Origin: a virus
Strand: one strand, 5' to 3'
DNA: 26,037 nucleotides
Virus record (IMG/VR): IMGVR_UViG_3300021959_000331
Coordinates: 1 to 26,037 of that record
Of the stretch, positions 23,981 to 25,456 are shown in pieces. A program made the position numbers and the translations under genes. Within the stretch, counting starts at the first letter, position 1. Each line of letters starts with the position of its first letter. The notes beneath the pieces were generated by a model, which saw only the letters and a list, made by a program, of their open reading frames with translations, searched no databases and had not been told where the DNA came from.

Positions 23981-23988
23981 GCTAGGCT

Positions 23989-24186
23989 TTACTGCATATT
24001 TTTACTAGACCAAAAAGAACCTACGTTTTCTAAAATTGCAAACGCAACATCTTCATTCTTTTCTTTGTAGACTAAGCAAACCGCATTAACTAAAACACGT
24101 ATATCTTTTAAGGTCATCTCATCAGGCAGTTCTTCAATTGCATTACAAAATGCCTCAGTGTAAAACACAGCCCTAGCGTCTGTCAT
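23989..24186 (-). CDS. Small acidic protein at the end of the leftward operon, function unknown
   Basis: 65 residues from ATG at 24186 with GAGGAG 7 bases ahead; an upstream ATG at 24222 lies in the preceding gene and lacks a ribosome site. Predicted mostly helical: MTDARAVFYTEAFCNAIEELPDEM, LKDIRVLVNAVCLVYKEKNEDVAFAILENVG. The acidic surface and lack of any motif do not allow a function. It overlaps the 3' end of the alpha-CTD-like gene by 14 bases, so the two are probably translated together; it could be a partner protein of that regulator. Confidence 0.7.
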   Translation of the reverse strand: MTDARAVFYTEAFCNAIEELPDEMTLKDIRVLVNAVCLVYKEKNEDVAFAILENVGSFWSSKNMQ

Positions 24187-24622
24187 TTTCTTGCTCCTCA
24201 AAATATGCACGACGATTTTCAATTAGAATTATTTGATGAGCCCTTTGCCGTGACATGTTATACATTAATGCAATATCTTTTATTTCCACACCTTCTTTAG
24301 ATAGCTCAAGCATTTTTTTATCTCTGTAGAAATTTTTTCTAACTGGACTTCTGCGTTCTATATATAATCTTTTATCTATTAAGTTTTCTTCAGGCCAATG
24401 ATCGTTAATGTAAGTGCAAACTTCATTAAAGGACTTAGGCCCAAAGTTTGGTATTGTTAAAAGGTAATTTCCACTAGCGCATAGATCAGCAAACCGCTTT
24501 CTGCACTCAGGTTTCTTTAGATCAAACCCTTTTTCAAATTCATATTTAAGGCAGTTTAATGCGCGAACAGATAAGGGTTGTTTTCCTATCTGCTTTACTT
24601 TTACGTTAGATACATTGCTCAT
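24173..24622 (-). CDS. RpoA C-terminal-domain-like / sigma-region-4-like fusion, putative transcription regulator
   Basis: 149 residues from ATG 24622 with AAAGGAG 7 bases ahead (a longer frame from 24712 has no ribosome site and overlaps the upstream gene). Residues 16-26, PLSVRALNCLK, and 54-68, LLTIPNFGPKSFNEV, are the two signature segments of the RNA polymerase alpha C-terminal domain. Residues matching E. coli Arg265, Asn268, Cys269, Lys271, Gly296, Lys298, Ser299 and Glu302 are all kept (Arg20, Asn23, Cys24, Lys26, Gly61, Lys63, Ser64, Glu67), with about ten extra residues between the segments. HWPEENLIDKR (75-85) recalls the NWPPEN tail of bacterial alpha. Residues about 100-140, with DIALMYNMSRQRAHQI, form a helix-turn-helix like sigma region 4.2. 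The fusion suggests binding of UP-element-like and -35-like DNA, or contact with host polymerase. This function is inferred. Confidence 0.82.
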   Translation of the reverse strand: MSNVSNVKVKQIGKQPLSVRALNCLKYEFEKGFDLKKPECRKRFADLCASGNYLLTIPNFGPKSFNEVCTYINDHWPEENLIDKRLYIERRSPVRKNFYRDKKMLELSKEGVEIKDIALMYNMSRQRAHQIILIENRRAYFEEQENDRR

Positions 24623-24623
24623 T

Positions 24624-24836
24624 TCAGTTCTCCTTTGATGGCCTTGCTTTTGGTTTGAGTGACCAGTCTGGTGCAAGCTTTCGTTCCTGTTCGTAGTTGG
24701 TGCGGTTGCCACTTGTATCTACGCCAACACACTGATCGTGGAATCCATGCAGATCGTGGAATCTTACAAAGTCTTGACAGTCTTGCCAGTCAGTAAACGG
24801 TAAGAAAGCAATGAAAGCAAAGCTAAGACTATTCAC
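24624..24836 (-). CDS. Small protein with internal repeats, function unknown
   Basis: 70 residues with a GTG start at 24836; AAAGGAG sits 7 bases ahead, which supports the start. Its start overlaps the stop of the upstream helix-turn-helix gene, and its stop lies one base before the next ATG, so it fits the operon. The N-terminus is hydrophobic (LSFAFIAFLPF). It is followed by a short repeat-derived stretch DWQDCQDFVRFHDLHGFHDQC. The basic C-terminus is ERKLAPDWSLKPKARPSKEN. No domain is recognised. The gene could be recent or fast-evolving given the tandem repeats, and I hold moderate confidence that it is expressed. Confidence 0.55.
   Translation of the reverse strand: MNSLSFAFIAFLPFTDWQDCQDFVRFHDLHGFHDQCVGVDTSGNRTNYEQERKLAPDWSLKPKARPSKEN
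24734..24791 (-). repeat. Short tandem repeats in small leftward gene
   Basis: GATCGTGGAATC appears at 24734-24745 and 24752-24763 (period 18). Next to it AGTCTTG appears at 24770-24776 and 24779-24785, with a partial copy at 24788 (period 9). Both periods are multiples of three, so the frame of the overlapping gene is kept; they encode RFHD/GFHD and DCQD/DWQD-like steps. Confidence 0.85.
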
Positions 24837-25116
24837 CTGCCAACTCCTTTAGATTATATCTGCTAATGATTTGGCTGACTGCTTGATGCGAGGTGCCGAC
24901 AACGTGCGCTATGGAGCGGACTTTCATATCGGACTTCATGCAGAGTAATATTTTTTCTGCCTTCTGGGAGAGCTTTTGGCTCTTGTTGGGCCTACCCCCT
25001 TTGTAACCTCCGTCCCTGCCCTTGTACCCTGCGACAGCGTTGCTACCGCCTATGCGAGAGAGCATCCTTGCGTTCTCCACCTTGGCATAGACCATCATCT
25101 TTTCTAGCTGTGTCAC
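24829..25116 (-). CDS. Helix-turn-helix protein, resolvase-HTH-like
   Basis: 95 residues with a GTG start at 25116 preceded by a near-perfect ribosome site AAAGGAGG 9 bases ahead; ATG codons at 7 and 8 are later alternatives. The N-terminus is helical (MTQLEKMMVYAKVENARML), then a Gly/Arg/Lys-rich linker (GYKGRDGGYKGGRPNKSQKLS). The C-terminal helix-turn-helix is VRSIAHVVGTSHQAVSQIISRYNL (about residues 66-89). GRP followed by KLS and this HTH recalls the C-terminal domain of serine recombinases, but no catalytic domain is present, so this is a DNA-binding protein and not a recombinase. It is likely a small transcription regulator of the early module; a palindrome lies upstream at 25190. Confidence 0.75.
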   Translation of the reverse strand: MTQLEKMMVYAKVENARMLSRIGGSNAVAGYKGRDGGYKGGRPNKSQKLSQKAEKILLCMKSDMKVRSIAHVVGTSHQAVSQIISRYNLKELAGE

Positions 25117-25189
25117 TTGACTTGTCCTCCTTTGTTTTGTTTACTGGATTTGTGAGGCGGCTCTCTCAGAAACCCAAACTTTTTGTATC

Positions 25190-25208
25190 GTTTACCTGCC
25201 TGTTAAAC
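25190..25208. promoter_or_regulatory. Operator-like imperfect palindrome
   Basis: GTTTACCTGCCTGTTAAAC has perfect 5-base arms (GTTTA/TAAAC) and 7 of 9 matching half-site positions. It lies in the 110-base gap upstream of the helix-turn-helix gene that starts at 25116. That is a usual place for a regulator binding site, but a single copy only is seen. Confidence 0.3.
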
Positions 25209-25226
25209 TTTATATCAACTGCCGCT

Positions 25227-25415
25227 TCACACCTTATCAGGCCACTTTGCCCTTAAAAATTTTATATCGTAGTGGTGCGCAAAGCGTCTAAGCACAGGCT
25301 CGTCACACCTTAGTATCTTAGCTGCATCTTTCATTGTGTAATTGGCAGCAAAGCTTTGAACGAGTTCAATCTTCTCGCGCTGATGCCTCGCTTTTATTTC
25401 TTGCCATGTTTCCAT
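25227..25415 (-). CDS. Small helix-turn-helix protein
   Basis: 62 residues from ATG 25415, with AAGGAG 6 bases ahead; an upstream frame extension to 25484 runs through the terminator hairpin and is rejected. The N-terminal helix is charged (METWQEIKARHQREKIELVQSFAAN). A compact helix-turn-helix follows (YTMKDAAKILRCDEPVLRRFAHHYDI, about residues 26-51) and the basic tail ends FLRAKWPDKV. Small regulators of this style occur in phage early regions. Its ribosome site begins within a few bases of the T-run of an intrinsic terminator, so its expression probably depends on read-through. Confidence 0.7.
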   Translation of the reverse strand: METWQEIKARHQREKIELVQSFAANYTMKDAAKILRCDEPVLRRFAHHYDIKFLRAKWPDKV

Positions 25416-25429
25416 GATGTCTCCTTGGG

Positions 25430-25456
25430 AAAAAAAGGACGCTCCGAAGAGCGCCC
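25430..25456 (-). terminator. Intrinsic terminator with UUCG loop
   Basis: On the minus strand GGGCGCTC-TTCG-GAGCGTCC forms an 8-bp stem with one G-U pair (25449-25456 with 25437-25444), followed directly by seven T (25436-25430). It sits 47 bases after the SSB-like gene stop and just ahead of the AAGGAG of the next gene. It likely ends or attenuates the leftward transcript. Confidence 0.85.

Follow-up and report, generated by a model that had tools for sequence, protein, structure and literature searches.

Bacterial RNA polymerase has two readers for the upstream part of a promoter, the C-terminal domain of its alpha subunit (alpha-CTD) and region 4 of the sigma factor (sigma4); phage mechanisms that modify, cleave or bypass these readers are known. 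The acidic alpha-CTD residues D259 and E261 touch sigma region 4. Public records already contain phage proteins annotated with alpha-CTD-like domains; among isolated phages, domains scoring above the profile cut-off occur in the 'RNA polymerase subunit alpha' of Bacillus phage Goe8 and in gp23 of Ruegeria phage vB_RpoS-V16, joined to an uncharacterised partner in the former and to a pyrophosphatase-like one in the latter, with no helix-turn-helix (HTH) detected. The vB_RpoS-V16 fusion (L157:3908-4774) is labelled an HTH protein in one record and a pyrophosphatase in another. The small activators of the phage Mu Mor/C family bind as dimers to an inverted repeat at the -35 region and activate host RNA polymerase. 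Mor, an HTH activator, makes use of the host alpha-CTD: it takes the position of the -35 element, beside a partial UP element that is bound by the alpha-CTD (PMC4390567). Our search of the literature (open PMC subset) found no description of a phage fusion of alpha-CTD and HTH.

The protein analysed here is encoded on the minus strand of a 26,037-nucleotide stretch of DNA (the window) from an IMG/VR record of a marine virus of bacteria. Its gene occupies 24173..24622 (ATG at 24622-24620, 149 codons from 24622 to 24176, stop codon at 24175-24173), and a strong ribosome-binding site, AAAGGAG, lies 5' of the ATG at 24636-24630. A homologue is found at the same genomic position in a second phage, L053, and this same-site homologue together with the ribosome-binding site rules out a spurious open reading frame. 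No homologue was detected in annotated phages by tblastn, and none was found in bacterial genomes. The original prediction described the product as an alpha-CTD signature fused to a sigma-region-4-like HTH and quoted the motifs LSVRALNCLK, PNFGPKSFNE, WPEEN and MSRQRAHQI, all four of which are present in the translation.

Judged by sequence comparison, residues 17-75 (24398..24574, minus strand) are a bona fide alpha-CTD relative. They match PF03118 (RNA_pol_A_CTD) with E=1.3e-6 and 28.4 bits against a curated cut-off of 23.8; a profile made from three RpoA CTDs only scores the protein at 21.4 bits, whereas none of 20,000 shuffled versions exceeds 13.5; and a profile built from three family members finds mostly RNA polymerase alpha chains in the PDB, with 9zum first. 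The same PDB search returned no helix-hairpin-helix (HhH) repair family, and an unrelated HhH family is ruled out for residues 17-75, since the profile matches are to RNA polymerase alpha. The sequence of 9zum has an alphaproteobacterial shape, and the closest known domain is the alpha-CTD of alphaproteobacterial type. In alignments, R20, N23, C24 and K26 correspond to R265, N268, C269 and K271 of E. coli alpha, while N59, G61, K63, S64 and E67 correspond to N294, G296, K298, S299 and E302. Conservation of the UP-element contact residues, as originally claimed, is borne out by all eight positions checked in the DNA-contacting 265 determinant (R265, N268, C269, N294, G296, K298, S299 and E302). 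The 261 determinant, which is a functional residue set and no criterion of PF03118 membership, is lost: K14 and P16 stand in place of D259 and E261, and it is lost in L053 too. Retention of the DNA-contact residues with loss of the sigma-contact residues argues for a DNA-binding use of the domain. The protein further differs from RNA polymerase alpha in its C-terminal HTH, in the absence of the N-terminal assembly domain from its 149 residues (Pfam scan) and in a 10-residue insertion within residues 27-40, which widens the L262-P293 spacing to 41 from the 31 of RpoA. The domain that had been predicted is thus real, but the insertion between its two motifs had gone unmentioned.

AlphaFold gave a poor model from two sequences (pLDDT 60.7) and, from a 29-row alignment, a model with a mean pLDDT of 84.7 and a pTM of 0.53, the latter leaving the relative placement of the domains uncertain. 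Helices are predicted at residues 19-28, 38-49 and 62-75, the positions expected for an alpha-CTD, but Foldseek of the model against PDB and BFVD returned no significant match, so that the alpha-CTD assignment rests on sequence. The C-terminal half, with predicted helices at 98-109, 114-120 and 125-148 and block means of pLDDT of 90-97 over residues 101-149, can safely be modelled as an HTH domain (residues 98-149, 24176..24331, minus strand). To sigma region 4 it bears a resemblance that falls short of an identification. The putative recognition helix shares the SRQRxxQI pattern with sigma region 4 (PF04545) and the weak Pfam matches include Sigma70_r4 beside HTH_7, HTH_29 and HTH_23; however, the Sigma70_r4 match (E=0.11, 12.4 bits) falls far under the cut-off of 24.1, and in hhalign a LuxR-type HTH (90.8%) fits about as well as sigma4 (93.2%). 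The 'sigma4' label is therefore unsafe: of the sigma-region-4-like HTH first proposed, the HTH is secure and the sigma4 part is not. A Pfam scan found no sigma region 2, the domain of -10 recognition, nor any other sigma region in the protein.

The linker between the two domains (residues 76-97, 24332..24397, minus strand) starts with HWPEEN, which seems to resemble the WPPENIEEL tail of another phage alpha-CTD protein, L020. The homologue in the second phage (L053:3448-4293) is a 282-residue protein, 77% identical over the shared parts. It has about 130 extra residues of no assigned fold between window residues 15 and 17, which L053 has gained or the window protein has lost, and an added gene for an Xre-type HTH is present in the same genomic slot. 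Between the two homologues dN/dS is about 0.38 for the alpha-CTD and about 0.86 for linker and HTH, values that come from one pair with 133 shared codons and small counts, and six of the 11 residues of the putative recognition helix (residues 124-134, 24221..24253, minus strand) are changed. Stronger constraint on the alpha-CTD than on linker and HTH is thereby suggested only; a constant target for the alpha-CTD and a phage-specific target for the HTH would be expected to produce such a contrast.

The alpha-CTD/HTH gene is part of an accessory cassette of about 660 bp (23981..24640). Its second member, a 65-residue ORF of unassigned function (23989..24186, minus strand), shares 14 nt with the end of the preceding alpha-CTD/HTH gene; it is 88% identical in L053 and, across the viral collection searched, was found only with a window-type gene (two phages). 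In the syntenic phage G002 (endolysin 99%, SSB 97%) a conserved 70-residue ORF directly follows the endolysin gene, and blastn shows window positions 23981 and 24640 adjacent at the junction, the cassette being missing as one clean block; this clean absence marks the gene as accessory. None of 40 relatives recognised by their portal protein has a PF03118 match, and in other relatives different small proteins, some with an HTH, are encoded between SSB and endolysin. In the window the 70-residue ORF lies upstream of the cassette (24624..24836, minus strand; conserved in G002 and L053). Two small HTH proteins (24829-25415), encoded past a terminator-like hairpin, come immediately before the alpha-CTD/HTH gene on its upstream side; one of 95 residues (24829..25116, minus strand; HTH_28 E=5e-4) is conserved in G002 and L053, and the other, an HTH-like protein of 62 residues (25227..25415, minus strand; HTH_28 E=0.019), is conserved in relatives. 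The hairpin with its T-run, a consensus match only (25437..25456, minus strand), separates the SSB-like gene from this regulator block, which varies among relatives between SSB and endolysin. The left arm is extended by contig L002, whose 3.0-kb overlap with the window is 99.9% identical; on the upstream side, the alpha-CTD/HTH gene is preceded in its own orientation by genes for a nuclease of RecE-like (YqaJ) type, a putative annealing protein and the SSB-like protein, and then by those for the small HTH proteins. The alpha-CTD/HTH gene and the lysis end of the structural genes run towards each other.

Scans of the viral collection with sequence motifs recovered 49, 7 and 3 stretches, nearly all of them small ORFs with an alpha-CTD-like domain, and all 33 representatives match PF03118 at E<0.1. 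The residue matching R265 is invariant among the 33 aligned members. Because the second motif served as the search pattern, its conservation is not evidence, whereas the R265 position lies outside the pattern and its conservation counts. At least five phage lineages, which are not counted as independent fusions, pair an alpha-CTD-like domain with an HTH; the pair named in the original prediction thus recurs outside the window. The alpha-CTD comes first in the window protein, L053, L046 and L166, and second in L015/L029, L008, L162 and L169; the L046 and L166 proteins look like orthologues, both encoded beside a RecA-like ATPase. A 235-residue fusion (L169:1181-1888), encoded beside an SSB gene and a few genes from an integrase, passes two Pfam cut-offs (Sigma70_r4 at 34.9 bits and RNA_pol_A_CTD at 72.4 bits) and thus carries a bona fide sigma4, its HTH segment matching a sigma-factor profile at 3e-7; no fusion of this type was found in bacterial genomes. 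It is a better test case for a union of sigma4 and alpha-CTD than the window protein. Phage late-activator profiles are matched by the HTH segments of L166 (1e-4), L162 (2e-4) and L015 (7e-5), and HTHs of paired proteins in other phages show weak matches to Pfam Mor. The window protein is likewise a small phage protein like Mor; unlike Mor it has an alpha-CTD built in, and its match to a late-activator profile (phrog_836) reaches E=0.14 only. The 261 determinant is lost in the window protein, L053, L015 and L166, kept in L008, L162 and L169, and kept at one of two residues in L046; its loss as a rule for HTH-fused proteins was dropped, since L008, L162 and L169 keep the residues. In the L015 protein (L015:2677-3291) the alpha-CTD region and its surroundings also match the NCBIfam profile for BREX PglW (E=1e-4), a hint that defence proteins may contain alpha-CTD-like domains. 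The L008 and L015 genes lie just upstream of terminase genes.

Given that the pairing occurs in several unrelated phages, the role is probably that of a phage transcription regulator. We propose, with belief somewhat outweighing doubt, that the window protein is an accessory DNA-binding regulator with two grips. Its HTH would recognise a defined site in the major groove, probably of phage DNA, and the Arg, Asn, Lys and Ser residues of the alpha-CTD-like domain would enter an adjacent AT-rich minor groove, as the host alpha-CTD does at UP elements. Such a binder would be suited to a -35/UP region, where a major-groove site adjoins an AT-rich minor groove, and bound to DNA of this kind it may alter the use of the promoter by host RNA polymerase; direct contact with the polymerase is not assumed. 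In favour of the proposal count the profile and PDB matches to alpha, the kept DNA-contact residues together with the lost sigma-contact ones, the invariant R265 position in the 33 aligned members, the contrast in constraint between the two homologues, the late-activator or sigma-factor matches of HTHs in the paired proteins (two of them encoded just upstream of terminase genes) and the lack of a T7-type RNA polymerase in the relatives examined. The Mor layout provides the closest mechanistic precedent. Within this proposal, we place an activator slightly below even chances and a competitor or repressor of UP-element promoters slightly above them. Against the proposal stand the repeat and promoter scans of the region, which returned no target site above chance, and the recombination-gene neighbours, HhH domains being able to serve in replication or repair; with these facts weighed, we still lean towards the two-grip regulator.

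A more direct takeover was envisaged as one option in the original prediction: by mimicking the adjacent alpha-CTD and sigma4 of the holoenzyme, the protein would make contact with host polymerase and divert it to phage promoters. The absence of a phage RNA polymerase, on which that idea drew, extends beyond the window: no T7-type enzyme was detected in the window, in the 40 portal relatives (many of these records being partial) or in Pelagibacter phage Hodr (34.2 kb), the isolate whose portal comes closest (63%), while the same search detects the enzyme of P-SSP7. The relatives must therefore use the host polymerase, which is consistent with hijacking, as are the L169 fusion with both domains above their cut-offs and the L166 protein, which has a sigma4-like ITRERVRQI helix and the domain order of the window protein. 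For the window protein itself we consider hijacking unlikely: its HTH falls under the sigma4 cut-off with a LuxR-type HTH fitting about as well, the loss of the 261 determinant weakens the case for polymerase recruitment, and a protein with neither sigma region 2 nor the alpha N-terminal domain contains nothing known to bind core polymerase.

A decoy in host shutoff would occupy the UP elements of strong host promoters such as those of rRNA and starve host transcription, the HTH only adding affinity. All UP-element contact residues are kept, as such a role would have it, and phages hit the same contact by other means, with T4 Alt and ModA modifying alpha Arg265 (PMC2988021). We find this improbable, as the HTH diverges fast between the two homologues, which would not be expected of a domain directed at conserved host promoters, and the cassette is dispensable in relatives. 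Even less credit is given to an accessory role in recombination or replication, with the HhH as a non-specific DNA grip unrelated to transcription. The neighbouring nuclease, annealing and SSB-like genes and the RecA-like ATPase beside the L046 and L166 orthologues speak for it; however, the profile matches are to RNA polymerase alpha instead of repair HhH families, the putative terminator stands between the SSB gene and the regulator block, and other carriers adjoin terminase genes.

Returning to the two-grip regulator, a wider and speculative extension, which we rate as possible though distinctly less than probable, is that phages, on repeated and independent occasions, joined an alpha-CTD that they had captured to a sigma4-like or Mor-like HTH, yielding 'surrogate alpha-CTD' factors that would replace the host UP-element and -35 contacts at phage promoters. 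A recurrent phage combination of an alpha-CTD grip with an HTH would, if true, be a new way of promoter takeover, and the alpha-CTD/HTH proteins would permit direct tests of the role of the alpha-CTD once it is cut loose from the polymerase.
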